From: Chelativorans sp. YIM 93263
GTDB taxonomy: Bacteria; Pseudomonadota; Alphaproteobacteria; Rhizobiales; Rhizobiaceae
DNA: 64,000 bases
Assembly (NCBI RefSeq): GCF_028767125.1
Contig: NZ_JAKCWP010000003.1
Location: 434,001-498,000 of the forward strand
Direction of reading: 5' to 3'
Of this stretch, positions 28,893-44,162 are shown in pieces. Made by a program: the position numbers and the translations under genes. The notes below the pieces were generated by a model. The model saw only the letters and a list, made by a program, of their open reading frames with translations. It did no database searches and was not told the origin of the DNA. How positions within the stretch are numbered: the first letter of the stretch is position 1; each line of letters begins with the position of its first letter.

Positions 28893-28893
28893 T

Positions 28894-30435
28894 CTACGCG
28901 CTCCGAGCCAGCGGCATGGAGTTGCAAGCCAGCTCGCGTGCCTCTTCCATGGCGTCCCGAAGGGTCAGAAGCGCACGGCTCGTCGTGGCGCGCTTTTCCG
29001 GGTAGTCGAGACGATGGTGCGCGCCGCGGCTTTCGGTGCGCCGCAGTGCGGCCACCGCGATCAGGAGCGCCAGGGCAGCGGGATCGGCGTCTGCGCTTTC
29101 CTCTTCGGCCAAGGGCAACAGCGTCTCGATTCCGTAGCACAACCCTTCGCCAGAACGAACGACACCAAGAGACTGCGAAACGATCGGGCGAATGGCGGCG
29201 AGGTCAGGCGGCAATGGCACGTCTATCGGAGGCGGCCGGCGAACGGTTCCTGCCGGCGTGTCGACCACGCTCTCCGCGATCTTTCGCGCAAAAACCGCTG
29301 CCTCGATCAGGGAATTGCTGGCAAGCCGATTGGCGCCGTGAAGTCCCGTGGAGGCCGTCTCGCCGCAGGCCCAAAGACCCGCCACCGTGCTGCGCCCCTG
29401 CCCATCCACGGCGATGCCGCCCATGTGGTAGTGCTCGGCAGGACGTATCGGAATGGGCTCGCACACAGGATCGATGCCTGCTTCGTGACAGAAGCCATTG
29501 ATGGCAGGAAAACGCTCCGGGAAACCCGATCCGATCGCCTTTCGCGCATCGAGAAACACCCGGTGGCCTTTGCGCATATGCGCGGCCACGCCGCGCGTGA
29601 CCACATCGCGAGGGGCGAGCTCCGCGCCCGGCGTATCCCCCAGGAAGCGCCGACCGGTCTCATCGATCAGCACCGCGCCCTCGCCGCGCACGGCCTCGCT
29701 GACGAGCCGCATCGGCCGGCCGGCACCGTCCAGCGCCGTGGGATGAAACTGGATGAATTCGAGATCGACCAGCGCTGCGCCAGCACGAGCGGCCATCAAA
29801 AGCCCCTGCCCCCAGCAGCCGATAGGATTGGTGGTGTCTTCGAATAAGCCACCGATGCCGCCCGTGGCCATCACCACGCGGTTCGTGGGAAAAGTGATTG
29901 GCCCATTGCCCGACTGCGCCAGCACACCGCAAACAATACCGTCCGCCAGCAGAAGCCGACGCGCCTCCACGTGCTCGAAAACGGTGATGGAGGGCGTCTT
30001 GCGCACGGCCTCGGCCAATGCGCGCATGATCTCACGCCCCGTTCCGTCACCGCTGGCATGGACAATGCGCTTGCGGCTGTGCGCGGCTTCAAGACCGAGG
30101 CTCAGAGTGCCGTCCGAGCCTCGGTCGAAACAAACGCCGAAGCGCTCCAGCGTTGCGATGGCGTCCGGCGCGGCCTCGGTGACCTGCCGCACGATTTGCG
30201 GGTCGCACAGGCCGGCGCCGGCCGTCATGGTGTCGGCCATGTGCAGGGCCGGGCTGTCATCGTCGGCAATGCTCGCCGCCAAACCGCCCTGGGCAAGCTC
30301 GCTCGAAGAAACAGCGCCCAGCGGTGCCCTGGTGAGCAACACGACGGGGTCCGGCGACAGATGCAGTGCCGTCAGCAGTCCCGCGATTCCACCGCCGATG
30401 ATGACCGGCTGCCCGGCCAGATGCCGGGTCGTCAT
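28894..30435 (-). CDS. nadB: L-aspartate oxidase
   Basis: A 513-residue flavoprotein that oxidises L-aspartate to iminoaspartate for quinolinate synthesis. The FAD dinucleotide motif is near the N-terminus ([13 protein letters not shown]), followed by [12 protein letters not shown], and [10 protein letters not shown] and [13 protein letters not shown] typical of the succinate dehydrogenase/aspartate oxidase flavoprotein family. The start overlaps the nadA stop as ATGA. Confidence 0.95.
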
Positions 30436-31406
30436 ACGGCCAGCATCCGCTCGACGGCAACGCGAGCCCGGTCTGCCGTTGCCGGATCGAGGATCACCTC
30501 ATAGCGATCCTGCTCCAGCGCGTCGCGGATATTGGACAGCGTGATGCGCTTCATATGCGGGCAGAGATTACAAGGGCGCATAAACTCCACCTCGGGATGC
30601 GCGGCGGCGATATTGTCGCTCATGGAGCACTCGGTCAACAACACCACACGGCCCGGCGCCTTCGTCTCCACGAAATTGGACATGGCGGCGGTGGAGCCGG
30701 AGAAATCCGCCTCGGCCACGACATCCGGCGGACACTCGGGATGGGCCAGTACCGTCACGCCGGAGTGTGCCTCGCGCAACTCACGGATATCGTCCGCGGT
30801 GAACAGCTCGTGTACTTCGCAATGGCCTTTCCAGGCGATGATCTCGACATCGGTCTCCTTGGCGATGTTCTGCGCCAGGTATTCGTCTGGGATCATGATG
30901 ACGCGCGGCACGCCGAGCGATTCCACCACGGCGCGGGCATTGCCCGATGTGCAGCAGATGTCGGATTCGGCCTTCACCGCTGCCGAGGTGTTCACGTAAG
31001 TGACGATCGGCACGCCGGGATAGCGCTCGCGCATGAGCCGGACATCCGCCGGTGTGATGGACTCGGCCAGCGAACAGCCCGCCCGCGTATCCGGAATGAG
31101 CACGGTCTTTTCCGGGTTCAGCAGCTTGGCCGTCTCGGCCATGAAGTGAACACCGGCGAGCACGATGGTACCTGCCTCCACCTCCATAGCCTTGCGAGCA
31201 AGCGCCAGGCTGTCGCCAACGATATCGGCCACGCAATGGAAGATTTCCGGTGTCTGGTAATTGTGCGCCAGTATGACGGCGTCGCGCTTTTCCTTCAGCT
31301 CCAGAATGGACTCGATATCGCTTGTGAAGGCCGGCCATTCGATAGGCGGGATAACGTTGCGCACCCTGTCGTAAAGTGAATTCAGCTGTGCGGGTGTGTC
31401 TAGCAT
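30432..31406 (-). CDS. nadA: Quinolinate synthase
   Basis: A 324-residue iron-sulfur enzyme that condenses iminoaspartate with dihydroxyacetone phosphate to quinolinate. Family segments include [33 protein letters not shown] and [14 protein letters not shown]; the three [4Fe-4S] cysteines are likely those in RAGCSLAES, a central cysteine, and the C-terminal CNLC region. The start follows GGAGAG. Two NadQ-type operator repeats lie immediately upstream. Confidence 0.95.
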
Positions 31407-31417
31407 TGGCCGCTCTC

Positions 31418-31467
31418 CTTATACTCAGCTCGAGTATAAGTAAGGATATGCTTGAGATGAGCATAAG
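31418..31467 (-). promoter_or_regulatory. Tandem NadQ-like operators before nadA
   Basis: Site 1: CTTATACTC (31418-31426), 5-bp centre, GAGTATAAG (31432-31440), perfect. Site 2 (31445-31467, read on the minus strand) has the same skeleton with changes: CTTATGCTC, centre ATCTC, AAGCATATC. Centres are 27 bp apart. They fill almost the whole nadQ-nadA gap, so repression of nadABC by the adjacent NadQ regulator is the natural reading. Confidence 0.75.
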
Positions 31468-32418
31468 TCAAGAGCGCATGACTGGCAGGCGTGTCCCCAT
31501 CAAGGTGCGCTGGATATGCACCGCTGGACGGAAACGGAAGAGCTTTGCCGGGCGTCCGCCGGTGTCCGAGGCCATTTCCCCCGTCTCCTCGATCAATTCC
31601 TGCTGTTCGATCAGGCGGCGGAAGTTCTGCTTGTGGGCCAGCCGGCCGGAGAGCGCCTCGACAGTCTGCTGCAATTGCAGGAGGGTAAAAACCGGCGGCA
31701 TCAGTTCAAACACCATGGGGCGATATTTGATCTTAGTGCGCAGCCGGGCGATCGCCGTCGCCAGAATGCGGCGGTGATCGGCAAACATCGCCACACCGGG
31801 AATCTCTTTTCTCGGACAGTCTGCCGCTTTGCGCCTGCGCCGGGCCTCTGCAACCAGACCTGCTTCGTAGAGAAGCTCGTAACGCTGCAACGCCAGTTCC
31901 TCGTTCCAACGCTCTCCATCGAAGCCAAAGACGCTGGCCATGCGCCGCCGACGCTCGTCCCGGAGTTGCCGGTCGGAAGCACTTTCGGCCCACTCGTCGA
32001 GAAGCGGCTGGATCACCTCTTCCAGCAGCGGGGGCGTGCCGTCGCGATGATCCTCCCAGGGGAAATAGTCGTACCAGCCGACCCAGTGGGGCGCGGAGGC
32101 AGCGTGCGGCTCCTCCGCCCGGGTCAGCCCGAGATAGCTGATTGAAATGGCGCGCCCGGCCTCATTGTCGATCCGGTCACGGTCGGCAAAAGTGTAGAGC
32201 TGCTCGATATAACCGAGCGGATGGCCCGTCTGCTGCTCGACCCATGCACGCAGCCCTGCCTGGAGCGAGCGATGCTCGAATTCGAAAGGCCCGGACGGCA
32301 GCATGTCTCCCTGGCGAATCGTCAGCACTGAAGGGGCCCCCGCTATAACGGACACCAGAACGGCAATCAGATCTACCTGAACGTCATGAGACTTGCGTGA
32401 CTTCCGGGTGTCGTCCAT
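31468..32418 (-). CDS. nadQ: NadQ-type NAD biosynthesis regulator (Nudix-like domain plus winged helix)
   Basis: A 316-residue protein of the alphaproteobacterial NAD regulator family (COG4111). The N-terminal half is Nudix-like without an intact catalytic Nudix box (LPSGPFEFEHRSLQAGLRAW, LGYIEQLYTFADRDR). The C-terminal part (about 215-310) is a winged helix (LQLQQTVEALSGRLAHKQNF, GRPAKLFRFRP). It stands directly upstream of nadABC with two inverted repeats in the gap. Family knowledge says such proteins repress nadABC in response to a nucleotide cofactor; the effector here is not shown by sequence. Confidence 0.8.
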   Translation of the reverse strand: MDDTRKSRKSHDVQVDLIAVLVSVIAGAPSVLTIRQGDMLPSGPFEFEHRSLQAGLRAWVEQQTGHPLGYIEQLYTFADRDRIDNEAGRAISISYLGLTRAEEPHAASAPHWVGWYDYFPWEDHRDGTPPLLEEVIQPLLDEWAESASDRQLRDERRRRMASVFGFDGERWNEELALQRYELLYEAGLVAEARRRRKAADCPRKEIPGVAMFADHRRILATAIARLRTKIKYRPMVFELMPPVFTLLQLQQTVEALSGRLAHKQNFRRLIEQQELIEETGEMASDTGGRPAKLFRFRPAVHIQRTLMGTRLPVMRS

Positions 32419-32630: not shown

Positions 32631-34040
32631 ATGGGTTCCACATCGAGCCTGCAGGACATTATCGAGGAAAACGGCAATATCGTTCGGGTGCTCCGGAATT
32701 CCAGAATCGGGATGTATGTATACCCGGTCGTCGCGCCGGAGTTTTCCAACTGGCGGGACGAACAGCGCGCGTGGCGCGACTCCGCCGTATTGTTCGACCA
32801 GACGCATCACATGGACGAGCTGATCGTCGAGGGTCCGGACGCCGCAGCGTTCCTAGACCATATCGGCATCAACAGTTTTTCCAATTTCGACCTGAACCGG
32901 GCGAAGCATTTCGTCCCGGTGACGCCGGCAGGTCATGTCATCGGCGACATGATCACCTTCCGCGAGCGCGAAGACAAATTCATTCTTGTCGGTCGCGCCC
33001 CGACGGCAAACTGGGTAAAATTCCAGCAGGCGATCAGCACATTCAAGGTGCGCCTGACCCACGATCCGCGCTCCGACAGCCGCCCCGACGGCAAGGCGAT
33101 TTACCGCACTCATTACCGTTTCCAGATCCAGGGCCCCGACGCCAACAAGATTTTCGAGAAGATCAATGGCGGGCCGGTCCCGGAGGTGAAATTCTTCCAT
33201 GTCGATTGGATCAATGTCGGCAGCAAGCGCGTGCAGGCGCTGCGACACGGCATGGCCGGCGCGCCGGGCCTGGAGATCTGGGGCCCGTATGCCGATAAGC
33301 ACTATATCCAGTCGACGATCCTCCAGGCGGCGAAGGATGTCGGGGTCGACCTGCGTCAGGTCGGTGCGCGCGCCTACTCCACCAACACGCTGGAATCGGG
33401 CTGGATCCCCTCGCCTCTGCCGGCCATCTACACCGGCGACGGCATGATGAAGGATTACCGCGAGTGGCTCGGGCCCGACAGCTACGAGGCCATGGGCTCG
33501 CTCGGCGGCAGCTATGTCAGCGACAATATTGAGGACTATTACGTCAATCCGTTCGAGCTGGGCTATGGCTTCTACATCGGATGGAAGTCCGACTTCATTG
33601 GTAAGGATGCCCTGGCCGGGATGAAGCAGCAGAAGAACCGCAAGAAGGTCACCTTCGAGTGGAACCGCGAGGATCTGCTGAAAGTCATCGCTTCCGGGTT
33701 CGAGGATGGCACGCCCTATAAGTGGGTCGATTTCCCGCAGCCGAACTACGCCTCGACGAATGCCGATAAGGTGATGCACGGCGACAAGATGGTCGGCATG
33801 TCGATGTTCAACGGCTACTCCTTCAACGAGCGCTGCATGCTGTCGCTGGGCGTCGTCGATGCCGATGTTCAGGAAGGCGATGTGCTCACACTGATCTGGG
33901 GCGAGCCGGACGACACCCAGAAAACTTCGGCGGAAAAGCATAAGCAGGCCGAAATTCGCGTGCGGGTCGCGCCGACACCTTATGCCCGCGAGGCGCGCGA
34001 GAATTATGCGGAGAGCTGGCGGAACAAGAAAAGCGCCTGA
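32631..34040 (+). CDS. ligM: LigM-type tetrahydrofolate-dependent aromatic O-demethylase (1)
   Basis: A 469-residue member of the GcvT/aminomethyltransferase fold, the length of LigM (vanillate/3-O-methylgallate O-demethylase) and DesA (syringate O-demethylase). These enzymes pass the methyl group of an aryl methyl ether to tetrahydrofolate. Shared segments with the second copy at 41483 include ESGWIPSPLPAIYTG and GPDSYEAMGSLGGSYVSDN, and the AYS tyrosine corresponds to the catalytic region of LigM. The start at 32631 follows GGGAGG; longer frames upstream are not conserved. It is the first gene of the aromatic cluster but is separated from it by a terminator. Whether vanillate, syringate or 3-O-methylgallate is preferred cannot be read. 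Confidence 0.85.
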   Translation: MGSTSSLQDIIEENGNIVRVLRNSRIGMYVYPVVAPEFSNWRDEQRAWRDSAVLFDQTHHMDELIVEGPDAAAFLDHIGINSFSNFDLNRAKHFVPVTPAGHVIGDMITFREREDKFILVGRAPTANWVKFQQAISTFKVRLTHDPRSDSRPDGKAIYRTHYRFQIQGPDANKIFEKINGGPVPEVKFFHVDWINVGSKRVQALRHGMAGAPGLEIWGPYADKHYIQSTILQAAKDVGVDLRQVGARAYSTNTLESGWIPSPLPAIYTGDGMMKDYREWLGPDSYEAMGSLGGSYVSDNIEDYYVNPFELGYGFYIGWKSDFIGKDALAGMKQQKNRKKVTFEWNREDLLKVIASGFEDGTPYKWVDFPQPNYASTNADKVMHGDKMVGMSMFNGYSFNERCMLSLGVVDADVQEGDVLTLIWGEPDDTQKTSAEKHKQAEIRVRVAPTPYAREARENYAESWRNKKSA

Positions 34041-34057
34041 CATATCCGATGCCGGAG

Positions 34058-34082
34058 GGGTCGGCGCGTGTGCTGCCGACCC
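34058..34082 (+). terminator. Hairpin after the first O-demethylase gene
   Basis: GGGTCGGC (34058-34065), 9-nt loop, GCCGACCC (34075-34082), a perfect 8-bp stem followed by TT, 17 nt after the stop. It separates this gene from the TRAP operon. Confidence 0.65.
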
Positions 34083-34299
34083 TTAGCAACCAGCAACTAT
34101 AACCGGGAACCTAGCCGGGCTGCTCCGGAACACCTGTATTTCCGGGAAAATTTCGTTTGCCCAAATTTCATATGTAACAAAAACTTATAGCTAGACAGCA
34201 GAACGAATTTCGCCTCCCTCCCCCGATCGCTTAATCTCCGGCTTGCTTGGTCCCGCCTCGTTCGCAATGGTGGGGATGTGCAACAGGGAGGTAAAGCAG
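34083..34299. promoter_or_regulatory. Likely promoter region of the TRAP/gallate operon
   Basis: About 220 bp without a gene, locally AT-rich (34135-34200). TTTCC-G-GGAAA (34139-34149) is a palindrome, and AAATTT occurs twice 9 bp apart, as expected for LysR-type sites. No clear -35/-10 pair could be fixed. Confidence 0.4.
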
Positions 34300-35310
34300 A
34301 TGTTTCGACAGATGATTTCCAGTGTCGCGGTCCGCACGGTGGCCGCCGCTGCATTCGCCACCACGTTCGTGGCAACGCCGCTTTCGGCCGAGACCTTGTC
34401 GCTCGCGCACTTCGTCGCGCCGGGTCACGTTGTGACGGGGTCCGTGGTCGAACCGCTGGCCGAGGGCGTATCGGCGGACACGGACGGCGAACTGACCATC
34501 GATGTCTATCCCGGCGGCGAACTGGGTGCGGGGCCGATGGAGCAGTATGTGCGCGCGCTGCAGGGCGTGGCGGACATTACCTGGGGCCTGCAGGGCTACA
34601 CCTCCTCGCAGTTCCCCAAAACCATGATCGTCGAGATGCCCGGGGCCATTCCCGACGGCATGACCGGCTACGAGATGCTGTGGAATGCCTATGACGCGCA
34701 TCTGACGGACGAGTTTCCGGGCACCAAACCGCTGGCGCTGTGGGCTTCCGAACCCAACATCATCATCATGAAGAACCATGAGGTTCGAACGCCGGAGGAC
34801 CTGGCCGGGCTGAAGATCCGCGTCTCCGGCTCAATCGCATCGTCGGTCGTCGAAGCGCTCGGCGCAACGCCGGTCCAGATGCCGGCCGGCGAAATCTACA
34901 ATGCGCTGCAGACGGGCCTGATCGACGGGCTGATCACCGGAGCCAGCGCGGTCGCCGACTTCAAACTGGACGAGGTCGCAAACAGCTATACGGTCGGCGC
35001 GCCGCTCGGCCATATCAGCTTCTATCTCGTCATGAACCAGGAGCGCTATGACGGCCTTTCCGACGAATTCAAGGCCGCCGTCGACAACCACAGCGGCCTG
35101 AAACTGTCCCAGAGCGGCGAGGAATCCTGGAACGAGCGCGCTGACGAAACCCTGGAGTCCATTCGCGCGTCCGATGACAACACGGTGATCGATCTGACGC
35201 CCGAGGAAGCGGAGGCGTTCGCCGAGCTGACCTTGCCGGTGACCGATGAGCTCGTCGCAGAGATGGGCGCCGAGGATGTTCTCGCCACCATGCGTGGGGA
35301 GGGAGATTAG
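34300..35310 (+). CDS. TRAP transporter substrate-binding protein (DctP) of the aromatic cluster
   Basis: A 336-residue exported protein with a signal peptide (about 1-30, ending PLSAET) and the DctP fold: LSLAHFVAPGHVV, the ligand-arginine segment DLAGLKIRVSGSIASSV and QTGLIDGLITGASAV. The start follows GGGAGG. The DctQ and DctM genes follow after 6 nt and by overlap. Its ligand is likely an aromatic acid, given the downstream ring-cleavage genes; this is inference. Confidence 0.9.
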   Translation: MFRQMISSVAVRTVAAAAFATTFVATPLSAETLSLAHFVAPGHVVTGSVVEPLAEGVSADTDGELTIDVYPGGELGAGPMEQYVRALQGVADITWGLQGYTSSQFPKTMIVEMPGAIPDGMTGYEMLWNAYDAHLTDEFPGTKPLALWASEPNIIIMKNHEVRTPEDLAGLKIRVSGSIASSVVEALGATPVQMPAGEIYNALQTGLIDGLITGASAVADFKLDEVANSYTVGAPLGHISFYLVMNQERYDGLSDEFKAAVDNHSGLKLSQSGEESWNERADETLESIRASDDNTVIDLTPEEAEAFAELTLPVTDELVAEMGAEDVLATMRGEGD

Positions 35311-35316
35311 TCCTTC

Positions 35317-35820
35317 ATGCTGCGCAATTTGCGAGGCTTCGCGGACGGGCTGATCAGCCTGTCCGCAACAATCGGCGCCCTCGGGCTGCTGTTTGAGGTC
35401 GTCGTCATCCTGATCGACGTGGCTGAGCGCTATTTCGGCATCCCTCTTAGGGGCGCCCAGGACCTCTCGCAAATGGGCATGGTCATACTGGTCTTCGGTG
35501 CCATGGCGCTGTGCGACCGGCTCGGCGGGCATATCGCGGTGGACATCTTCGAATCGCGATTTCCGCACTGGCTCAACCACCTGGCCAATGTGGCGAGCGC
35601 GCTGCTCGGTGCGGTGATTTTCGTCGGCATTGCCTGGGCGGTTTACGAGTCCTCCAAGATCTCGCAGATGCTCAATCTCGCCACCAACATTCTCAACCTG
35701 CCGAAGGTTTATTTTCAGTGGGCGCTGTCGGCGTTCGCACTCGTAGCCGCGCTCGGCATGATCATGCGCGCGCTCGAGCTCACCATTTCCGGCCGTGACG
35801 TCCGGGAGGAGCGGCCATGA
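35317..35820 (+). CDS. TRAP transporter small membrane subunit (DctQ)
   Basis: A 167-residue protein with four membrane segments, the usual DctQ size. It begins 6 nt after the dctP stop and overlaps dctM as ATGA, so the three are co-translated. DctQ links the binding protein to the DctM channel. Confidence 0.9.
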   Translation: MLRNLRGFADGLISLSATIGALGLLFEVVVILIDVAERYFGIPLRGAQDLSQMGMVILVFGAMALCDRLGGHIAVDIFESRFPHWLNHLANVASALLGAVIFVGIAWAVYESSKISQMLNLATNILNLPKVYFQWALSAFALVAALGMIMRALELTISGRDVREERP

Positions 35821-37121
35821 GTCCGATGGCGGTCGGTGGCATTGGAATGGCCGTTCTGCTGGCGCTGCTCGTGCTGCGCGTGCCGGTGGCCTTTGCCATG
35901 TTCGCCGTCGGCTTCGCCGGCATCGCCATTCTCAACGGCCCCTCCTCGGCGATCAATCTCCTAGCCTCGGAGACATTCACCCTGGCCTCTTCGGCGGAGC
36001 TCGTCGTGGTGCCGCTTTTCATCCTGATGGGCAATGTGGCCTCCGCGACCGGCATGAGCAGCCGGCTCTACGATGCGGCCTATGCGATCATCGGCTCGAT
36101 CCGGGGCGGCCTCGCCTCTGCCACCATCATCGGCTGCGGCGGCTTTGCGGCGCTCTCCGGCTCCTCCGTGGCGTCCGCGCTCACGATGGGCAAGGTCTCG
36201 CTCGCCGAGATGAAGCGTTTCAACTACGATTCGCGTCTTTCCACCGGCTCGGTTACGGCGGGCGGTACGCTCGGCATCCTGATCCCGCCATCCACCGGTT
36301 TCGTGATCTACGCAATCCTGACCGAGCAATCGATCGGCCGGCTCTTTCTTGCGGGGGTTCTGCCGGGGCTTCTGCTGCTTACGCTTTTCATTTTCACGAT
36401 CACGCTTCTTTGCTGGTGGCGTCCCGCGCTCGGCCCCAGCGGCCCGAGCACCTCCGTGCCGGAAAAGGTGAAGGCCCTTGCCGGGGCGCTGCCCATCGTC
36501 GGCGTTATCCTCCTGACGATCGGCGGCATCTATGGCGGCCTCTTCTCGCCGGTGGAGGCGGCGGCGGTCGGTGCAGGGTTGATCATCCTGCTGGGCGCGA
36601 TCATTGGCCAGCTCTCCCTATCCGTCCTGTGGCAGGCGGCAAAGGACTCGGTCGTCACCACGGCCACCGTGATGCTGATCCTGACCGCCGCGCACCTGCT
36701 CAATCCGTTTCTGGCGCTCAGCCACATCCCGCAGGCGGTCGGCGCCTTTCTCGAGGGGCTGAATGCCTCCAACCTCACGGTCCTGGGGCTGATCCTGCTT
36801 TGCTATCTCGTGCTCGGATGCTTCATCGAAGGTTTTGCGATGCTCGTGCTGACGATGCCGATCTTCTTTCCCGTCGTCACGATGCTCGGCTTCGACCCGA
36901 TCTGGTTCGGCGTTCTGGTGGTGGTGACGCTCGAGATGGGGCTGATCTCCCCGCCCGTGGGCGTCAACGTCTTTATCGTGAAGTCGGTGGCACGAGACGT
37001 GCCCATGGGCAAGATTTTCGCAGGCGTGATGCCGTTCTGGATCGCCATGCTTGTGGCGCTGATCCTGCTGGTCGCGTTTCCACAGATCGCGCTGTTCCTG
37101 CCGAACACGATGATCAACTGA
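35817..37121 (+). CDS. TRAP transporter large membrane subunit (DctM)
   Basis: A 434-residue protein with about twelve membrane segments and the DctM signature segments (GGTLGILIPPSTGFVIYAI, MGLISPPVGVNVFIV). It is the sodium-coupled channel part of the TRAP system. It ends 29 nt before the dioxygenase gene. Confidence 0.92.
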   Translation: MSPMAVGGIGMAVLLALLVLRVPVAFAMFAVGFAGIAILNGPSSAINLLASETFTLASSAELVVVPLFILMGNVASATGMSSRLYDAAYAIIGSIRGGLASATIIGCGGFAALSGSSVASALTMGKVSLAEMKRFNYDSRLSTGSVTAGGTLGILIPPSTGFVIYAILTEQSIGRLFLAGVLPGLLLLTLFIFTITLLCWWRPALGPSGPSTSVPEKVKALAGALPIVGVILLTIGGIYGGLFSPVEAAAVGAGLIILLGAIIGQLSLSVLWQAAKDSVVTTATVMLILTAAHLLNPFLALSHIPQAVGAFLEGLNASNLTVLGLILLCYLVLGCFIEGFAMLVLTMPIFFPVVTMLGFDPIWFGVLVVVTLEMGLISPPVGVNVFIVKSVARDVPMGKIFAGVMPFWIAMLVALILLVAFPQIALFLPNTMIN

Positions 37122-37150
37122 GCGACCGAAAGGAATGAAGGAGAGTGGAT

Positions 37151-38119
37151 TTGACTGAACCGTGTTTCGATGTCGCTCATCTCGGCCATGTCGAGGTGCT
37201 CACCGACCGTTTTGAAGAAAGCCTCGATTTCTTTGTCAATGTCTACGGCTTGACCGAGAGCGGACGCGACGCCGACTCCGTCTATCTGCGCGCCTGGGAC
37301 GATTACGAGTTTCATTCGCTGAAACTCACTCGCTCGGAGACGACCGGCATGGGACATTGCGCCTACCGCACGTCATCAGAAACCGCGCTGCATCGCCGAG
37401 TTAAGGTGATTGAGGAGATGGGGCTCGGTATCGGCTGGACTGACGGCGATCTCGGCCACGGACCGTCCTACCGCTTCAAGAGCCCTGACGGACACGTTTT
37501 CGAACTCTACTGGGAAACCAAGAAATATGTCGCGCAGGAAGGCGAAAAGCCGGCGCTGAAGAACATCGCCCAGCGCTATCACGGCCGGGGCGTTGCGCCG
37601 CGCCGGCTCGACCATTTCAATCTGCTTGCCAGCGACGTGTCGAAGATCCGCGATTTTATGGTTCAAGCCCTGGGCAGCCGCGTCACCGAGATGATCCAGC
37701 TCGACAATGGGCGTATCGGCGGCTGCTGGTTCACCGTCAACAACAAGGGCTACGACATGGCCTGCACGGAGGACCATTCCGGCGCGCAGGGCCGCTTTCA
37801 CCACATCACCTACGCCGCCGATCACCGCGACGACATCCTGCGGGCGGCCGACATCTTTCTGGAAAACGGCGTCTTCATCGAAACCGGCCCGCATAAGCAC
37901 GCCATCCAGGGTACTTTCTTCCTATACGTCTACGAGCCCGCCGGGAACCGGGTCGAGGTCGCCAATGCCGGTGCGCGGTTGGTTCTTGATCCCGACTGGG
38001 AACCGATCGTCTGGACGGAGGCCGAGCGCAGACGAGGCCAGGCCTGGGGAATGAAGACGATTGAATCCTTCCACACACATGGAACGCCGCCGGTCAGTAC
38101 CTCGGCGGGAAAAGACTAG
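37151..38119 (+). CDS. VOC-fold (type I) extradiol ring-cleavage dioxygenase, catechol 2,3-dioxygenase-like
   Basis: A protein of about 322 residues with two vicinal oxygen chelate modules, the XylE-type layout. The three iron ligands are in place: His155 (RRLDHFNLL), His218 (GRFHHITYAAD) and Glu269 (GNRVEV); the KHAIQGTFF segment matches the second-sphere histidine region, and EPIVW the C-terminal part. It would cleave a catechol-type ring next to the two hydroxyls using Fe(II) and O2. The start is a TTG at 37151, seven bases after AAGGAG; a GTG at 37145 would have too short a spacing. It lies between TRAP genes and galB/galC/galD-like genes, so a carboxylated catechol such as gallate, 3-O-methylgallate or protocatechuate is the expected substrate; gallate is usually cleaved by unrelated LigAB-type enzymes. 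Confidence 0.85.
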   Translation: MTEPCFDVAHLGHVEVLTDRFEESLDFFVNVYGLTESGRDADSVYLRAWDDYEFHSLKLTRSETTGMGHCAYRTSSETALHRRVKVIEEMGLGIGWTDGDLGHGPSYRFKSPDGHVFELYWETKKYVAQEGEKPALKNIAQRYHGRGVAPRRLDHFNLLASDVSKIRDFMVQALGSRVTEMIQLDNGRIGGCWFTVNNKGYDMACTEDHSGAQGRFHHITYAADHRDDILRAADIFLENGVFIETGPHKHAIQGTFFLYVYEPAGNRVEVANAGARLVLDPDWEPIVWTEAERRRGQAWGMKTIESFHTHGTPPVSTSAGKD

Positions 38120-38129
38120 GAGTTAATGC

Positions 38130-38858
38130 ATGAGTAAGACCGCATTGGTTGTAAGCGCGCATTCGGCCGATTTCGTTTGGCGTTGCGGCGGGGCGATCGC
38201 GCTGCACCAGAAGAAGGGCTATGACGTCACCATCGTCTGCCTCTCCTACGGCGAGCGCGGCGAGAGCGCCAAGCTCTGGAAGCAGGAAGGCATGACGCTC
38301 GACAAGGTCAAGGCCGCCCGCCGCAAGGAAGCGGAAAACGCGGCCGCAGCCCTCAACGCCCACGACATACAGTTCTTCGATCTCGGTGACTATCCGCTGG
38401 AGATGGACCGCGCGGCGAAGGACCGACTGGTCGACGTCATCCGCAAGGTGCAGCCTGATTTCATGCTCTCGCACTCGCTGGACGACCCCTACAACACCGA
38501 TCATCCCTATGCCACGAAGATGGCGCTGGAGTGCCGCATGATCGCACAGGCCTGGGGGCACAATCCCGGCGAAAAGGTGCTCGGCGCGCCCCAGCTTTAC
38601 CTGTTCGAGCCTCATCAGACGGAGCAGTGCGGCTGGAAGCCGGACACAATCCTCGACATCACCGATGTCTGGGCCGAGAAGCGCGCGGCCATCGAGTGCA
38701 TGGAAGGCCAGCAGCACCTCTGGGACTATTACACCAATGTGGCAGAGAACCGCGCTAACCAGTTCCGCCGCAATTCCGGCGGGCAGGCAGGCGGACGGTC
38801 GGCCAAGCATGCCGAGGGCTTCCAATCGATCTTTCCCAAAACCGTGGATGAGCTGTGA
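38130..38858 (+). CDS. galB: PIG-L family hydratase, GalB-like (4-oxalomesaconate hydratase)
   Basis: A 242-residue PIG-L/LmbE fold protein. The family zinc motif is altered at the start ([15 protein letters not shown] in place of AHPDD), which agrees with the GalB branch acting on gallate-pathway intermediates and not with deacetylases. GalB adds water to 4-oxalomesaconate to give 4-carboxy-4-hydroxy-2-oxoadipate. The neighbours downstream are aldolase- and tautomerase-like genes of the same pathway. The start follows AGGAG. A deacetylase role is the alternative. Confidence 0.8.
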
Positions 38859-39529
38859 TGAGTGTTGTTGTTCAGAATATCGAGCGCGCCGATCCGGAGG
38901 TGATCACCGGACTGGCCGAATGCGGGGTGGCCACTGTGCACGAGGCGCAAGGCCGCAAGGGCCTGCTCGCCTCCCATATGCGGCCGATCTATTCCGGCGC
39001 GCAGATCTCCGGCTCGGCCCTCACCATCTCCGCCCCGCCCGGCGACAACTGGATGCTGCATGTGGCCATCGAACAATTGAAGGAAGGTGACGTGCTGGTG
39101 CTGGCGCCCACCAGCCCTTGCGAAGACGGCTATTTCGGCGACCTGCTGGCCACGTCGGCCATGGTGCGCGGGTGCCGGGGATTGGTGATCGATGCCGGCG
39201 TGCGGGACGTGCGCGATCTCACGAAAATGGAGTTTCCCGTCTGGTCAAAGGCGATCTTCGCCCAGGGCACGGTCAAAGAGACGCCCGGCTCGGTCAATGT
39301 GCCTGTGGTCTGCGCGGGCGCGCATATCAATCCGGGCGACGTGATCGTGGCCGATGATGACGGCGTGTGCGTTGTGCGCCGGGAGGAGACCGAAAGCGTG
39401 CTCGCGGCCGCGCGCAAGCGCATGGCCAATGAGGAAGAAAAACGCCAGCGCCTCGCGGCAGGCGAACTCGGCCTCGACATCTACAAGATGCGCGAGCGGC
39501 TGAAGGAAAAGGGACTGAAATATGTCTGA
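38858..39529 (+). CDS. galC: RraA-fold aldolase, LigK/GalC-like (4-carboxy-4-hydroxy-2-oxoadipate aldolase)
   Basis: A 223-residue RraA-like protein. In the aldolase branch the metal and substrate site lies around [14 protein letters not shown]-type segments, seen here as [16 protein letters not shown], plus [12 protein letters not shown]. It cleaves 4-carboxy-4-hydroxy-2-oxoadipate to pyruvate and oxaloacetate. The ATG at 38858 overlaps the galB stop (TGATG); a GTG one codon earlier is possible. It overlaps the next gene by 8 bases. Confidence 0.85.
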
Positions 39530-40574
39530 CGGCATCCGGGCCATGTGGATGCGCGGCGGCACGTCCAAGGGAGGCTACTTCCTCGCCTCGGACCTGCCGC
39601 AGGATACCGCGGAACGCGACCGGCTTCTTCTGCGCATCATGGGCTCACCCGACCCGCGCCAGATCGACGGTCTCGGCGGGGCCGACCCGCTGACCTCGAA
39701 GGTCGCGGTGGTGAAGCCTTCCGAACAGGAGGGCGTCGACGTCGATTACCTGTTTCTCCAGGTCTTCGTCGATCAGGCGATCGTCACGGACGCGCAGAAT
39801 TGCGGCAACATCCTTGCCGGTGTCGGCCCGTTCGCCATCGAGCGCGGGCTTGTCCCGGCGCAGGATGGAACGACCGATGTGCGTATCTTCATGGAGAACA
39901 CGGGCCAGACCGCCGTGGCGACGATCCAGACGCCCGGCGGCACGGTGACTTATGAGGGCGAGGCGCGCATCGATGGCGTTCCCGGCACGGCGGCGCCCAT
40001 CCCGATTGCGTTCGAGGATACGGCCGGCTCCTCCTGCGGGGCGCTTTTGCCCACCGGGAACGCCGTCGACCGGATCGATGGTGTCGACCTCACCATGATC
40101 GACAACGGCATGCCCTGCGTGGTCATGCGTGCCGCCGATCTCGGCATCAGCGGCTATGAGGACCGGGCCGAGCTGGAGGCAAACGAGGACTTGCGGCGGA
40201 AGCTGGAGGCCATCCGACTGAAGGCCGGGCCGATGATGAATTTGGGCGATGTGGCGGAAAAATCCGTGCCCAAGATGACGATGGTCGCCCCGCCGCGCCA
40301 TGGCGGCGCCATCACCACGCGCACCTTCATTCCGCATCGCTGCCACGCTTCCATCGGCGTTTTAGGCGCGGTCAGTGTGGCCACCGCTTGCCTGCTGCCG
40401 GAAGGCCCGGCTGCCGACATGGCCGAGACGGGCGAAGGTGCGGAGCGCACGCTTTCCATCGAGCATCCAACCGGAGAGATGACCGTGGTGGCAAAGCTGG
40501 ACGCCGAGGGCGGCGTGCAGCGTACCGCGATCCTGAGAACGGCACGCAAACTTTTCGACGGCCAGGTGTTCTGA
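39522..40574 (+). CDS. galD: PrpF-family isomerase, GalD-like (4-oxalomesaconate tautomerase)
   Basis: A 350-residue PrpF-family protein. The N-terminal [11 protein letters not shown] and the [16 protein letters not shown] segment are typical of the family, and gene context favours the GalD branch, which converts the enol and keto forms of 4-oxalomesaconate. A cysteine motif NCGNIL near residue 92 is a conserved catalytic position. It overlaps galC and is followed directly by the oxidoreductase gene, stop to start with no gap. Confidence 0.85.
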
Positions 40575-41486
40575 ATGACTCACGGCATGAGCATCGCCTT
40601 CATCGGGTTCGGCGAAGCGGCAAGGGCGTTTCAGGAAAGCCTTGCCGCAGAGGAGCCGGAGCTACGCTTTTCAGCCTACGACATTCTTCTCGATGCGCCG
40701 GGCTCGGCCGGAGAGATGCGCGCGGCTATGAAAGAACGCGGTATCGAGATTTGCGATGCACCTGCGGGTCTGTCTACCGCCGATTGGGTCATCAGTGCCG
40801 TCACTGCCGATCAGAGCGGCAATGCGATCGATGCGCTAAGCCCGCACCTCAAGCCCGGACAACTCGTCATCGACATCAACTCGGTCTCGCCGCAACAAAA
40901 GCGCGCCAACGCCGCGCTCGTCGAGCAAAAGGGTGCGGGCTATCTTGACATGGCGGTGATGGCCCCCGTTCATCCGCGCAAGCACCGCACGCCGGTGCTG
41001 ATCGCCGGGGCTTCGGCGGAGGCTCTTCGCGCTCGACTCGATGCGCTCGGCTTCGACTACGCGGTTGCGGGCGAGTCGCCTGGTAAAGCGACGGCTATCA
41101 AGATGGTGCGCTCGCTTTTCGTGAAAGGGCTGGAGGCGATTACGGTCGAAACGCTTCTGGCGGCGGAGGCCTCGGACTGTTTCGACGCGGTGTATCAATC
41201 GCTATCCCGCGATTTTTCCGGTCTCGGCTGGCCGGACTTCGCCGCCTACGAATTCGAACGGAGTTTGCGCCACGGACGCCGGCGCGCCGCGGAAATGCGT
41301 GAAAGCGCTGCAACGGTGGAAGAGCTGGGGCTCAACGGAGCGCTCGCGACGGAGATTGCCGAGGTGCAGGAGCGGATAGGCCGAACTCAAGCCCCGGCGC
41401 CCGAAGCCGAGGCGCTTCGCGACGGCATTCGCGAAGTGTTGCGCGGCCGATTGGAGCAGGAAACCGGACAGGAGCAGAAAAAGTGA
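40575..41486 (+). CDS. 6PGDH-like NAD(P)-dependent oxidoreductase with DUF1932
   Basis: A 303-residue protein with an N-terminal Rossmann domain (IAFIGFGEAARAFQ) of the 6-phosphogluconate/3-hydroxyisobutyrate dehydrogenase type, the segment KPGQLVIDINSVSPQ, and a C-terminal helical DUF1932-like domain with KATAIKMVRSLFVKG. The lysine in the KMVRS segment is the usual catalytic site of the superfamily. It has no fixed place in the known gallate route and may reduce or oxidise a side intermediate, or act on an additional substrate. Its stop overlaps the GTG start of the second O-demethylase. Confidence 0.8.
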   Translation: MTHGMSIAFIGFGEAARAFQESLAAEEPELRFSAYDILLDAPGSAGEMRAAMKERGIEICDAPAGLSTADWVISAVTADQSGNAIDALSPHLKPGQLVIDINSVSPQQKRANAALVEQKGAGYLDMAVMAPVHPRKHRTPVLIAGASAEALRARLDALGFDYAVAGESPGKATAIKMVRSLFVKGLEAITVETLLAAEASDCFDAVYQSLSRDFSGLGWPDFAAYEFERSLRHGRRRAAEMRESAATVEELGLNGALATEIAEVQERIGRTQAPAPEAEALRDGIREVLRGRLEQETGQEQKK

Positions 41487-42856
41487 GCTACAGGTCTCTG
41501 GAGGAAAAGCTGCAGGCGGTCGGCAACCCCGCCACCATGATGCAGAATTCGCCGATTGGCCGCTACGTCTATCCGATTCCGGCCGAGTTCACGAGCTGGA
41601 TCGCGGAACAGCGTGCCTGGCGCGAGACGGCCGTGCTTTTCGACCAGTCCTTCCACATGACCGATCTCTACGTGAAAGGGCCGGACACAATCCGGCTCCT
41701 CTCCGACCTCGGCGTCAACAGTTTTGCGAACTTCGGAAAGAACAAAGCCAAGCAGTTCGTCTGCTGCAACTATGACGGCTATGTCATCGGCGATGTGATC
41801 TGCTTCGGCCTGGAAGACGACATGGTCAACCTCGTCGGCCGCCCGCCGGTGCCCAACTGGGTTCAGTTTCACGCCGAGACGGGCGATTACGACGTAAGAG
41901 TGGAGCGCGACGAGCGCAGCGCTGACAAACCGGACAAGCCCCGCAAGATCTACCGCTACGAGGTGCAGGGGCCGAACGCCATGGAGATCCTGGAAAAGGT
42001 GAACGAGGGCGGGCCGCTCACCACCAAGTTCTTCAATATGGGCGAGATCACGATTGCCGGCTGCAAGGCGCGAACGCTGGCTCATGGTATGGGCGGTGCG
42101 CCGGGGCTGGAGTTGTGGGGGCCGTTCGAGGACGGGCAGAAGGTGAAGGCCGCGCTCCTGGAAGTCGGCGAGGAATTCGGCATCAAGCAGGCTGGCGGCC
42201 GCGCCTACTCTACAGTGGCCATGGAGTCCGGCTGGATCCCCTCCCCGCTGCCGGCCATCTACACCGGCGAGAAGATGAAGCCTTACCGCGAATGGCTCTC
42301 CGGCAACGGTTTCGAGGCGGTGTCGTCCATCGGCGGCAGCTTCCAATCGGACAATGTCGAGGACTATTACCTCAAGCCCTGGGATCTGGACTATGGTCGC
42401 GTGGTCCGCTTCGACCACGACTTCATCGGCCGCGAGGCGCTGGAGAAAATGGCCGACCAGCCGCATCGCAAGAAGGTGACCCTCGTGTGGGACAAGGAGG
42501 ATGTGCTGAAGGTCTTCGCCGGGTTGATGGAAGATGGCGAGATGCCGAAGCTGATGGAAATGCCCGCCGCGCACTACGCCGCGCATCCTTACGACAAGGT
42601 CGTCAAGGATGGCCGGACTGTCGGTATTTCGACCTACCCCGTCTATACGGCCAATGAGCGCGCGTGGATTTCGCTGGCAATGGTGGAGGAAGGGCTTTCC
42701 GAGCCGGGCAATGACTTGACGGTCGTCTGGGGCGAGGCGAATGGCGGCACCGCCAAGCCGATGGTCGAACGCCACCGCCAGACCGAAATCGGAGCCGAGG
42801 TTCATCCCTGGCCGATCCACGAGGCTTCGCGGAAGTATCATCGCAGCCAGAAATAG
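41483..42856 (+). CDS. ligM: LigM-type tetrahydrofolate-dependent aromatic O-demethylase (2)
   Basis: A 457-residue paralog of the product at 32631, with the same family blocks (ESGWIPSPLPAIYTGEKMK, YGRVVRFDHDFIGREAL, AYSTVAMESGW). It starts at a GTG that overlaps the previous stop as GTGA, so it is translated with the ring-cleavage operon. The two copies differ in many substrate-side positions and probably divide syringate/vanillate and 3-O-methylgallate demethylation, as LigM and DesA do in Sphingobium SYK-6. No methylene-tetrahydrofolate reductase or other folate gene lies in this window, so methyl-group disposal must be encoded elsewhere. Confidence 0.85.
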   Translation: MSYRSLEEKLQAVGNPATMMQNSPIGRYVYPIPAEFTSWIAEQRAWRETAVLFDQSFHMTDLYVKGPDTIRLLSDLGVNSFANFGKNKAKQFVCCNYDGYVIGDVICFGLEDDMVNLVGRPPVPNWVQFHAETGDYDVRVERDERSADKPDKPRKIYRYEVQGPNAMEILEKVNEGGPLTTKFFNMGEITIAGCKARTLAHGMGGAPGLELWGPFEDGQKVKAALLEVGEEFGIKQAGGRAYSTVAMESGWIPSPLPAIYTGEKMKPYREWLSGNGFEAVSSIGGSFQSDNVEDYYLKPWDLDYGRVVRFDHDFIGREALEKMADQPHRKKVTLVWDKEDVLKVFAGLMEDGEMPKLMEMPAAHYAAHPYDKVVKDGRTVGISTYPVYTANERAWISLAMVEEGLSEPGNDLTVVWGEANGGTAKPMVERHRQTEIGAEVHPWPIHEASRKYHRSQK

Positions 42857-42908
42857 GGTTGGCCTCCGCCCGCACTTTCAACATGATGCGCGGCATCGGC
42901 CTCGGCGC

Positions 42909-42927
42909 GGGGAAACACGGTTTCCCC
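42909..42927 (+). terminator. Hairpin between the second O-demethylase and the LysR gene
   Basis: GGGGAAAC (42909-42916), ACG, GTTTCCCC (42920-42927), a perfect 8-bp stem, 27 nt before the LysR start. It may end the catabolic transcript or act in the LysR leader. Confidence 0.55.
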
Positions 42928-42953
42928 TGCCCGGGCCGCCTCGAGGGGCCATC

Positions 42954-44162
42954 ATGAAGCAATATCCGAACCTGCGCCATGTGCGGCTGTTCTGCCAATG
43001 CTTGCAGTCCGGCTCGGTTTCGCGCGCGGCTGATCTGGTCGGCATCTCCCAGCCCGCCGCCTCACAGGCGTTGGCGCGGCTTGAGGCCATTTTCGACGCC
43101 ACGCTGATCGACCCGCAACACAGCACGCCCGTTGCCACGGAAGAAGGGCGCATCGTGCTTACGCGCGCACAACGGGCGCTGGAATTGATCAGGACCGGCT
43201 GTGCGCGGCTGCGAGGCCCGACAAACGAGCGCAACGACAGCTCCGTCGAAGGTCGGCTGACCATATCGCATCTGCGCGCGCTTTCGGCCTTTGCCGAAGG
43301 CGGAAGCTTCAGTGCGGCCGCGCGCATCCTCGAGCAATCCGAACCTGCGGTTCACCGCACCGCGCGGGATGCGGAACTGACGCTGGAAACCGCGCTCCTC
43401 GAGGGCTCCGGGCGGGCAATCCGGCTTTCGAGCGCCGGCACATCCGCGGCGCGCTGGTCGCGCCTGGCGCTGAACGAACTGGAGAACGCCGCCGCCGAGC
43501 TGCGCGAGTTGCGCGGCCGCTATGAGGGTCATGTCTCGGTCGGAACCCTCCCGCTGGTACGGACCAGCATCATACCGGAAGTAATCGCCAGGATTAGCGC
43601 CCGCCATCCGCTGGCCAGCTTCGCCGTCGCGGAGGGCCGCTACGATGACCTGCGGCGCGATCTCGAGATGGGCCGCATCGAAATTCTGGTCGGTGCGCTG
43701 CGCACCACGCTCAGATCGAACATGCTGGTTCAGGAAAAACTCTTTACCTACCAGCTGTCAGTGGTCGCTCGGGCCGATCATCCCCTTGCCGCGAAGAAGG
43801 CCCTTACGGCGGCCGGTCTGGCGGAGTATCCTTGGGTGGTCGCGCGCCAGGGCACACCGTCGCGCGAGACCTTCGATGCATTGACCGCGCGGTTTCCGCC
43901 GGGCAGGCCGGCCCATCGCGCCGTCGAGACCGGGTCACTGGTCGCCGTCCGCGGCATCCTGATGAAATCCGACCATCTGGCCCTCTTATCCCAGCATCAG
44001 ATCGAATACGAAATGCGCGCCGGATTCTTGGCGCCGCTCGATTTCGACCTTCCCAGTCCCGAACACTCGATCGGCATGACCACGCGCCGGCAGTGGAAAC
44101 CGACCGCGCTTCAGAGTGAGTTCATCGAAACACTGCGGGAAATACGGCCGGAGGGTGATTAA
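42954..44162 (+). CDS. LysR-family regulator with two N-terminal HTH domains
   Basis: A 402-residue protein, about 100 residues longer than ordinary LysR regulators. The first winged helix is at about 5-65 (LCQ-type opening then SGSVSRAADLVGISQPAASQ). A second LysR-like helix-turn-helix follows at about 100-160 (SHLRALSAFAEGGSFSAAAR, EQSEPAVHRTARDAELTLE). The C-terminal substrate-binding domain runs from about 175. The start at 42954 has GAGGGG upstream; the longer frame is out of context. It follows the aromatic operon on the same strand and is the obvious regulator of the TRAP/ring-cleavage genes. The repeated HTH may reflect a fusion or duplication. Confidence 0.85.
   Translation: MKQYPNLRHVRLFCQCLQSGSVSRAADLVGISQPAASQALARLEAIFDATLIDPQHSTPVATEEGRIVLTRAQRALELIRTGCARLRGPTNERNDSSVEGRLTISHLRALSAFAEGGSFSAAARILEQSEPAVHRTARDAELTLETALLEGSGRAIRLSSAGTSAARWSRLALNELENAAAELRELRGRYEGHVSVGTLPLVRTSIIPEVIARISARHPLASFAVAEGRYDDLRRDLEMGRIEILVGALRTTLRSNMLVQEKLFTYQLSVVARADHPLAAKKALTAAGLAEYPWVVARQGTPSRETFDALTARFPPGRPAHRAVETGSLVAVRGILMKSDHLALLSQHQIEYEMRAGFLAPLDFDLPSPEHSIGMTTRRQWKPTALQSEFIETLREIRPEGD

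Follow-up and report, generated by a model that had tools for sequence, protein, structure and literature searches.

The gallate dioxygenases GalA and DesB are described as type II enzymes with a LigB fold in the available parts of PMC4250580 and PMC3962378, and 4-oxalomesaconate, according to the available parts of PMC12314914 and PMC9942251, arises directly from gallate cleavage and is the entry compound of the GalB/LigU/LigK route. In Pseudomonas sp. NGC7 the MgaAB-MgaC-MgaD route leads from syringate to 4-oxalomesaconate and then into GalDBC (PMC12314914, in the same available part), which is also the course that we propose for the operon analysed here. MgaAB however is LigAB-like, acts on 3-O-methylgallate and in this differs from the ring-cleavage protein described below. 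The operon lies in the window, that is the whole stretch of 64,000 nucleotides of Chelativorans sp. YIM 93263 DNA that was analysed, and its ring-cleavage protein would share with GalA of Pseudomonas putida and DesB of Sphingobium SYK-6 the conversion of gallate to 4-oxalomesaconate and the delivery of this product to GalD-GalB-GalC. Yet whereas GalA and DesB have the LigB fold, this protein has the vicinal oxygen chelate (VOC) fold and is encoded in a genome in which no match to the LigB-fold profile PF02900 was found. It has the two-module VOC fold and the metal triad in common with AphC of Rhodococcus jostii RHA1 (3lm4/7q2a; about 37% identity), XylE and LapB, but the clade to which it belongs differs from AphC and XylE in having Tyr203 in place of a histidine, in its specific residues Arg278, His250 and Gln255, and in its gal gene context. 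The closest solved sequence, 9wgj (387 bits; labelled 'Catechol 1,2-dioxygenase'), resembles the clade in having tyrosine at the position of XylE His199 but lacks Arg278, His250 and Gln255. A weak precedent for the action of a VOC enzyme on gallate is the type I enzyme BLC23O, for which the available part of PMC9925492 gives a 14% decrease in the phenolic reading of gallic acid within 6 h and that of PMC8671467 no activity on protocatechuic acid.

All genes of the operon are encoded on the plus strand between positions 32631 and 44162 and were called with a codon-usage caller (calling by longest open reading frame yields shadow ORFs). The LigM-like tetrahydrofolate-dependent O-demethylase (32631-34040) passes the cut-off of the LigM model NF047885 (638 bits, scored on the longer ORF starting at 32397; cut-off 580) and matches LigM of SYK-6 (5tl4) with 547 bits. 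It is followed by the genes of a TRAP transporter, the solute-binding protein DctP (34243-35310; PF03480, 147 bits), the small permease DctQ (35317-35820; named by its position and membrane-protein sequence) and the large permease DctM (35817-37121; named by position and sequence); in the loci L055, L099, L122, L164 and L171 the order of the DctQ homologues is kept and the DctM homologues lie immediately 5' of the VOC gene. The VOC gene itself (37151-38119, alternative start at 37145; PF00903, TIGR03211) is followed by the lower gallate pathway, all three members of which either exceed their model cut-off or match characterised proteins by a clear margin: GalB, the 4-oxalomesaconate hydratase of PIG-L fold (38130-38858; PF02585), whose best PDB match is GalB 5cgz with 325 bits as compared to 39 bits for the runner-up; the RraA-type 4-carboxy-4-hydroxy-2-oxoadipate aldolase GalC/LigK (38855-39529; TIGR02798, 397 bits, cut-off 304.5); and the PrpF-fold 4-oxalomesaconate isomerase GalD/LigU (39522-40574; NF033377, 557.6 bits, cut-off 440), best matched in the PDB by the (4E)-oxalomesaconate Delta-isomerase 6p3j (560.7 bits), a type of isomerase for which we take LigU to be the name. 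Next comes a DUF1932/6-phosphogluconate-dehydrogenase-like enzyme (40575-41486; PF09130, 56.5 bits; 177.6 bits to the uncharacterized protein 4ezb), which was missing from the initial annotation and travels with galBCD; its family is present in 60 of 120 neighbourhoods, the window included. The second O-demethylase (41483-42856) can be called DesA-like only, as its 645.8 bits on NF047633 remain below the cut-off of 800; it scores 576.9 bits on the LigM model, just under the cut-off, and 474 bits against 5tl4. Finally, a LysR-type regulator (42954-44162, start approximate) carries PF00126 in two HTH_1 stretches as well as PF03466, and with 202 on the PcaQ model TIGR02424 stays under the cut-off of 304. 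The O-demethylase, TRAP, VOC, PIG-L, RraA and PrpF genes had been named and placed likewise in the initial annotation, with which model and PDB matches agree.

The only Pfam matches of the VOC protein are PF00903, PF22247 and PF13669, the C-terminal module matching PF00903 with 68.6 bits and the N-terminal module PF22247 with 25.6 bits, just below the cut-off of 27. On TIGR03211 the protein reaches 324.3 bits and thus barely exceeds the cut-off of 320.2. The predicted structure (pLDDT 84.1) has the two-module VOC fold of the type I extradiol dioxygenases and superimposes on AphC (3lm4/7q2a) with a TM-score of 0.89, the top Foldseek matches being AphC, LapB and XylE. The TTG start at 37151 agrees with the N-termini of several relatives (M-T-E-P-C) and is preceded by AGGAG. 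Counted from this codon the metal triad is His155, His218 and Glu269, as had been proposed beforehand, which corresponds to H157/H220/E271 when counted from the GTG at 37145. The triad aligns with the ligand positions of XylE, whose residue numbers, including that of His199 as the second-sphere catalytic histidine, we take as given, and it is kept in all 112 clade sequences and in four outgroups, so that this assignment is confirmed. The second-sphere histidine itself is absent from the clade: at the position of XylE His199, which is His in AphC, XylE and L070 and Tyr in 9wgj, all 112 members have Tyr203. Perhaps this histidine is usual rather than universal in type I enzymes, since 9wgj is also without it. 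Arg278, His250 and Gln255 are invariant in the 112 members and specific to the clade. The alignment was drawn from 120 loci (L031-L070 and L092-L171), from which rows with stops, X or fewer than 290 aligned residues were dropped, leaving 112 clade rows (the window and 111 of 119 loci) with L070 as outgroup; in the tree the outgroup branches are very long and the inner nodes weakly supported, and we draw no branching claims from it. An arginine binding the substrate carboxylate as in HPCD was considered and rejected, because by our own placement Thr247 stands at the position of Arg243, presumably the carboxylate-binding residue of HPCD. Both this threonine and the tyrosine in place of the catalytic histidine weigh against the gallate reading. 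Our candidate for this role, at the level of a guess, is Arg278, the surrounding block of which is modelled with a mean pLDDT of 69 and with residues 279-282 below 50.

The replacement of a LigAB-fold dioxygenase by a non-homologous enzyme, as put forward in the initial annotation, would be called into question by a LigAB-type dioxygenase encoded elsewhere in the genome. Such a protein was looked for, and PF02900 found no match in the source genome in a profile search with 4 of 14 controls positive; by this profile neither the VOC protein nor any other protein of the genome belongs with GalA and DesB. A search for the LigA subunit (PF07746), the controls of which were silent as well, had no match and carries no weight. 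A draft-genome artefact is an unlikely explanation for the absence of PF02900, since the genome is 99.99% complete and the pattern is repeated in other genomes. The VOC protein has no second match in the source genome at E<=1e-3. A second gene resembling the 4-oxalomesaconate tautomerase (G000:C22:256251-257288) was rejected as a sign of another gallate cluster because TcuA/TcuB are encoded a few kb away; these are genes of tricarballylate use.

Many Alphaproteobacteria encode relatives of the VOC protein with 60-88% identity close to gal genes, and so do a Pantoea plasmid and the actinomycete Nonomuraea, the latter having the same gal module with a relative at 60% identity. These relatives form a clade (homologue search with an E-value limit of 1e-60) that is distinct from paralogues at 43-47% identity, and the paralogues at 46-47% (Thermus HB8; L070) have no gal genes in the examined flank. 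In annotations, clade members go under the name of either 'catechol 2,3-dioxygenase' or 'VOC family protein'. Among the best 80 of 594 confirmed VOC loci, to which all locus counts out of 80 refer, 60 have a gal gene in the examined flank and 55 have all three; in 48 of these 80 the VOC gene has a gal gene of the same orientation as its immediate neighbour. This adjacency exceeds chance. Against the gallate reading, in 20 of the same 80 the examined flank is free of gal genes, and 11 have neither a gal nor a LigM-like gene. In addition, six of the 80 encode a LigB-fold protein in the same neighbourhood, as do L043, L067 and L179 of Roseomonas, and there the VOC enzyme is therefore not the sole candidate. 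On the pAt plasmid of Agrobacterium tumefaciens 186 the gene order is galB-VOC-galC-galD-tannase, the tannase matching PF07519 with 437.9 bits. A search of 145 loci from L031 on and of the window (L176-L182 lying outside it) found no tannase besides that of L174; the link thus comes from one plasmid record, which counts against the gallate reading.

Across 297 genomes of the order, GalD is present in 36 of 45 genomes with the VOC clade as compared to 39 of 252 without it (p=2e-17). As genomes of one genus are not independent, the comparison was repeated at genus level, with GalD in 24 of 26 genera with the clade and 23 of 97 without (p=1.5e-10). No LigB-fold protein of at least 170 bits was found in 25 of the 36 genomes with both VOC protein and GalD, and no PF02900 match at all in 10 of them; the limit of 170 bits is our own choice, made at the gap in the scores between 175.1 and 157.7, and genome G211 with 157.7 bits is counted as lacking LigB. 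Then again, nine of the 45 VOC genomes lack a GalD above cut-off, and GalD occurs in 25 genomes of the sample that encode neither a member of the VOC clade nor a LigB protein of at least 170 bits, both of which speak against the gallate reading. Some of these 25 fit clusters for PDC uptake or of tricarballylate type. Among the genomes behind the best 80 of 594 loci, 45 have record titles without 'MAG'. Twelve of these 45, in assemblies of unstated completeness, combine the VOC gene and all three gal genes in the flank with no PF02900 match; against this, 15 of the 45 also encode a LigB-fold protein of at least 170 bits. The lack of PF02900, the co-occurrence with GalD, the twelve genomes and the tannase operon together support the non-homologous replacement.

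But might the VOC enzyme act on a substrate other than gallate? If it chiefly cleaved 3-O-methylgallate, the product would be CHMOD or PDC, and the onward step to 4-oxalomesaconate needs an esterase or LigI. The LigM-like and DesA-like genes alongside the VOC gene are in keeping with this, as are LigI near some relatives (L115, L166, L179) and an alpha/beta hydrolase near L179. However, a search of the source genome with the full LigI protein did not find a LigI-type PDC hydrolase, the one LigI-like match (G000:C25) resembling 4mup (382 bits) far more than LigI (115 bits); no esterase is among the operon proteins scanned, and the tannase beside a relative points to gallate. Since the known onward routes need enzymes that were not found here, we regard 3-O-methylgallate as an improbable main substrate; of the earlier proposal of a gallate or 3-O-methylgallate dioxygenase, the gallate part stands and the 3-O-methylgallate part has become less likely.

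Even smaller is the chance that we are dealing with an ordinary catechol 2,3-dioxygenase, or a broad AphC-like alkylcatechol enzyme, that came to lie in a gal operon by accident. The protein does pass the cut-off of TIGR03211, which is a catechol 2,3-dioxygenase model, and its best structural matches are AphC, LapB and XylE, but its neighbours are gal and O-demethylase genes with no catechol meta-pathway genes adjoining, and the discreteness of its clade from the paralogues, the strong association with GalD and the clade-specific invariant residues all argue against such an origin. Just as hard to sustain is the cleavage of vanillate-derived protocatechuate in the manner of PraA, presumably also a VOC family member. 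LigM, going by the name of NF047885, demethylates vanillate too, and PraA has been described as a protocatechuate 2,3-dioxygenase (available part of PMC13254512). The source genome however contains a pcaHG-like protocatechuate dioxygenase pair elsewhere, and protocatechuate breakdown thus does not need the VOC enzyme. Moreover, by known chemistry GalBCD does not take 2,3-cleavage products, and 4,5-cleavage would require LigC/LigI, of which LigI was not found in the source genome.

We therefore favour, with a probability of about 0.85, the reading that the VOC protein is a type I gallate dioxygenase of an operon for lignin-derived syringate and gallate, which would yield 4-oxalomesaconate and replace GalA/DesB. 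Gene set, gene order, fold, metal ligands, the absence of LigB and LigI from the searches and the recurrence elsewhere are read from the sequences; the substrate and product of the VOC enzyme, the transporter cargo and the regulation we infer. The TRAP system would import a methoxylated or hydroxylated benzoate, the DesA-like enzyme would convert syringate to 3-O-methylgallate and the LigM-like enzyme 3-O-methylgallate to gallate, both presumably passing the methyl group to tetrahydrofolate. The VOC enzyme, holding a non-heme metal by two histidines and one glutamate, would bind two neighbouring hydroxyls of gallate and, by insertion of O2, cut the ring at the bond beside the third hydroxyl to give 4-oxalomesaconate, which GalD/LigU, GalB and GalC would take to pyruvate and oxaloacetate. 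As anticipated, a VOC gallate dioxygenase appears to be undescribed within the open-access literature searched. On balance, though with less assurance, we lean towards a separately evolved gallate dioxygenase, a widespread VOC clade with Tyr203 in place of the catalytic histidine and Arg278 for the carboxylate, which gal modules of Alphaproteobacteria, Gammaproteobacteria and Actinomycetota may use as a plug-in part for opening the ring.

If this is true, the role of the DUF1932 enzyme in these operons becomes testable, as does the question of whether tyrosine can stand in for the proton-shuttling histidine of type I extradiol enzymes. The common annotation of the clade would be corrected, and a single-gene part unrelated to LigAB would become available for lignin funnelling and gallate biosensors; the E. 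coli GalR reporter of PMC9942251 responds to gallate in the presence of galA. Finally, the clade would be a clear-cut example of convergence between enzymes and would fill in the missing ring-opening step of gallate, syringate and tannin breakdown in many bacteria without detected GalA, DesB or LigAB.

The cluster at window positions 32631-44162 is a compact gene set, all on one strand, in the order ligM-like, dctP-dctQ-dctM, VOC, galB, galC, galD/ligU, DUF1932, desA-like and lysR, and from dctP through the desA-like gene the genes overlap or leave gaps of at most 29 bases. By profile matches both O-demethylases belong to the LigM/DesA family: the LigM-like protein exceeds the LigM model cut-off and scores 547 bits against LigM (5tl4), and the second, DesA-like protein stays below both the LigM and the DesA cut-offs and scores 474 bits. 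The PIG-L protein groups with GalB (5cgz, 325 bits; next match 39), the RraA protein matches the LigK profile, and the PrpF protein matches that of 4-oxalomesaconate tautomerase, with the oxalomesaconate isomerase 6p3j as its closest solved structure. With these matches the methoxybenzoate/gallate gene set claimed by the initial annotation is indeed present. A DUF1932 dehydrogenase-like protein (window 40575-41486, +) accompanies galBCD modules in many loci, also in Nonomuraea and in three loci with no VOC gene in the stretch (L072, L073, L078); none of the steps by which gallate is known to be degraded requires such an enzyme, as far as we know. The LysR regulator (window 42954-44162, +) has two HTH_1 stretches, apparently tandem, ahead of its effector domain, as has the regulator at L174:4122-5408, the plasmid locus of Agrobacterium tumefaciens 186. 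Just upstream of the cluster (window 28044-32418, -) lie NAD biosynthesis genes, nadB by model and its neighbours resembling nadC and nadA by eye, which end beside a gene whose product carries a winged-helix domain of the NrtR type. An L-arabinonate-dehydratase-like gene is found at window 61205-62950 (-; NF009559, 917.9 vs a cut-off of 882).

The VOC protein (window 37151-38119) barely passes the model for catechol 2,3-dioxygenase (TIGR03211, 324.3 over 320.2). Its AlphaFold model (pLDDT 84.1) superimposes on AphC with a TM of 0.89 and on homoprotocatechuate dioxygenases with about 0.8. Across 112 aligned members of the VOC clade, its close relatives, the metal triad is invariant, and so are Arg278, His250 and Gln255, which differ in all four outgroups. 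The position corresponding to His199 of XylE is Tyr in 112/112 members and in the nearest solved chain, 9wgj, whereas AphC, XylE and the 46-47% identical paralogue L070 have His there.

The clade occurs in 45 of 297 genomes of the order at 63-100% identity, below which there are just two paralogues at 46-47% (E<=1e-60). GalD over cut-off accompanies it in 36 of these 45 genomes, as against 39/252 without the clade (p=2e-17); by genus the figures are 24/26 and 23/97 (p=1.5e-10). Class-wide, 9/289 sampled genomes match the VOC protein, five at 72-100% identity (own genome included) and four at 43-44%. Among the best 80 of 594 relatives in genome_contigs (72-88% identity), the flank examined holds at least one gal gene in 60 loci and all three in 55, a gal gene directly adjoins the VOC gene in 48, a LigM/DesA-like gene is present in 30, and neither kind lies nearby in 11; the proximity to galBCD and ligM for which the initial annotation had proposed a search thus recurs in other genomes.

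On plasmid pAt of the walnut strain A. tumefaciens 186 the order is galB-VOC-galC-galD-tannase (one record; tannase PF07519, 437.9 bits), and plasmids from further walnut isolates give similar matches to the VOC protein. Tannase releases gallate from tannins, and this neighbour may be taken as a clue, drawn from gene order, that gallate is the substrate of the VOC enzyme. The galB-VOC-galC-galD order is also found in Agrobacterium vitis CG78, followed by a carboxylesterase gene, and in Thioclava near a TRAP importer; VOC, galBCD and DUF1932 genes lie inside about 10 kb in Pantoea piersonii and inside about 5 kb in the actinomycete Nonomuraea gerenzanensis. On a plasmid of Chimaeribacter the VOC gene occurs with no gal genes in the stretch examined. 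Unlike the gal-linked clade, the 46% identical enzyme of Thermus HB8 sits among catechol/4-hydroxyphenylacetate meta-cleavage genes. Three loci (L135:8925-9998, L058:3246-4364, L175:4882-5997) encode a protein resembling cobalamin-independent methionine synthase (PF01717; in L135 NF005085), whose gene either separates the VOC gene from an ABC importer of the branched-chain type or adjoins galBCD; no LigM homologue was found in the flanks examined, and the protein is perhaps another handler of methyl groups. Five others (L073, L088, L107, L115, L166) have gal genes and a LigI-like PDC hydrolase together with TRAP importers of the TAXI and/or fused type, and likely serve uptake of pyrone-dicarboxylate produced by other microbes.

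Several observations speak against a gallate role of the VOC enzyme. Some relatives have neither gal nor LigM genes nearby, GalD over cut-off is missing in 9/45 VOC genomes, and in nine loci (L122, L124, L126, L132, L145, L147, L043, L067 and the Roseomonas locus L179) the VOC gene shares its cluster with a LigB-fold enzyme, usually accompanied by LigA and alpha/beta-hydrolase genes. In such clusters gallate might be opened by the LigB enzyme, leaving a different step to the VOC enzyme. The hydrolase/LigA/LigB set may represent a dioxygenase for 3-O-methylgallate together with its CHMOD esterase; the three are unfused, separate neighbours in L043, L122, L124, L126, L132 and L145, and a hydrolase-LigA domain fusion stands beside LigB and gal genes at L067:3189-4178 (-) and L084:6982-8007 (-). 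Among the 36 VOC+GalD genomes, on the other hand, 25 have no LigB-fold protein of at least 170 bits and ten no PF02900 match at all. For the 45 non-MAG genomes (of unstated completeness) among the best 80 loci, 15 have no such match, 15 have one of at least 170 bits, and 12 combine the VOC gene and all three gal genes in the flank with no PF02900 match.

In the own genome (4.25 Mb, completeness 99.99) a search for PF02900, the fold to which GalA, DesB and LigB belong, gave no match, and the same search was positive in 4/14 control genomes; the LigAB-type dioxygenase that the initial annotation had considered elsewhere in the genome was therefore not found, and a LigB enzyme performing the gallate step is not an admissible reading here. 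Nor was a second match to the VOC protein found at E<=1e-3. LigI was looked for in this genome and not found, so that a 3-O-methylgallate/PDC branch via LigI cannot run. Protocatechuate has another route, since an intradiol pair fitting pcaHG is present (two PF00775 hits, the first with TIGR02422 313 over 296). A second OMA-tautomerase-like PrpF protein (in locus L071, G000:C22:246000-265900) sits with TcuA, TcuB and tripartite-tricarboxylate-transporter-like genes; the family model also picks up isomerases of tricarballylate/aconitate-type clusters.

From the genes, fold, metal ligands, conservation and absences as searched we infer a pathway with the VOC enzyme at its centre. The TRAP importer would take up syringate or gallate, and the DesA-like and then the LigM-like protein would demethylate onto tetrahydrofolate. 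Gallate would bind the metal of the VOC enzyme bidentately and O2 would be inserted, cleavage beside the third hydroxyl giving 4-oxalomesaconate or its enol, which LigU/GalD would isomerise, GalB hydrate and GalC cleave to pyruvate and oxaloacetate. The LysR protein would control the cluster; for GalR of P. putida, also a LysR protein, 4-oxalomesaconate is described as the effector (PMC9942251).

In the portions available of the sources concerned, AromaDeg (2014) places gallate dioxygenases under the LigB superfamily only (PMC4250580), DesB is a type II enzyme, as are its two relatives in SYK-6 (PMC3962378), and the ring-openers named in a 2025 syringate study of Pseudomonas NGC7 (LigAB, LigA2B2, DesZ, DesB, GalA and MgaAB) are all LigAB-related (PMC12314914). 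The open-access literature, to which our search extended and not to subscription papers, yielded no physiological VOC gallate dioxygenase, the nearest precedent found being BLC23O, for which a weak effect on gallic acid is noted (PMC9925492). Both the pathway and the superfamily are known, it is their pairing that we did not find described in this literature, and we propose, on sequence grounds, that the VOC enzyme would be the gallate ring-opener of the cluster.
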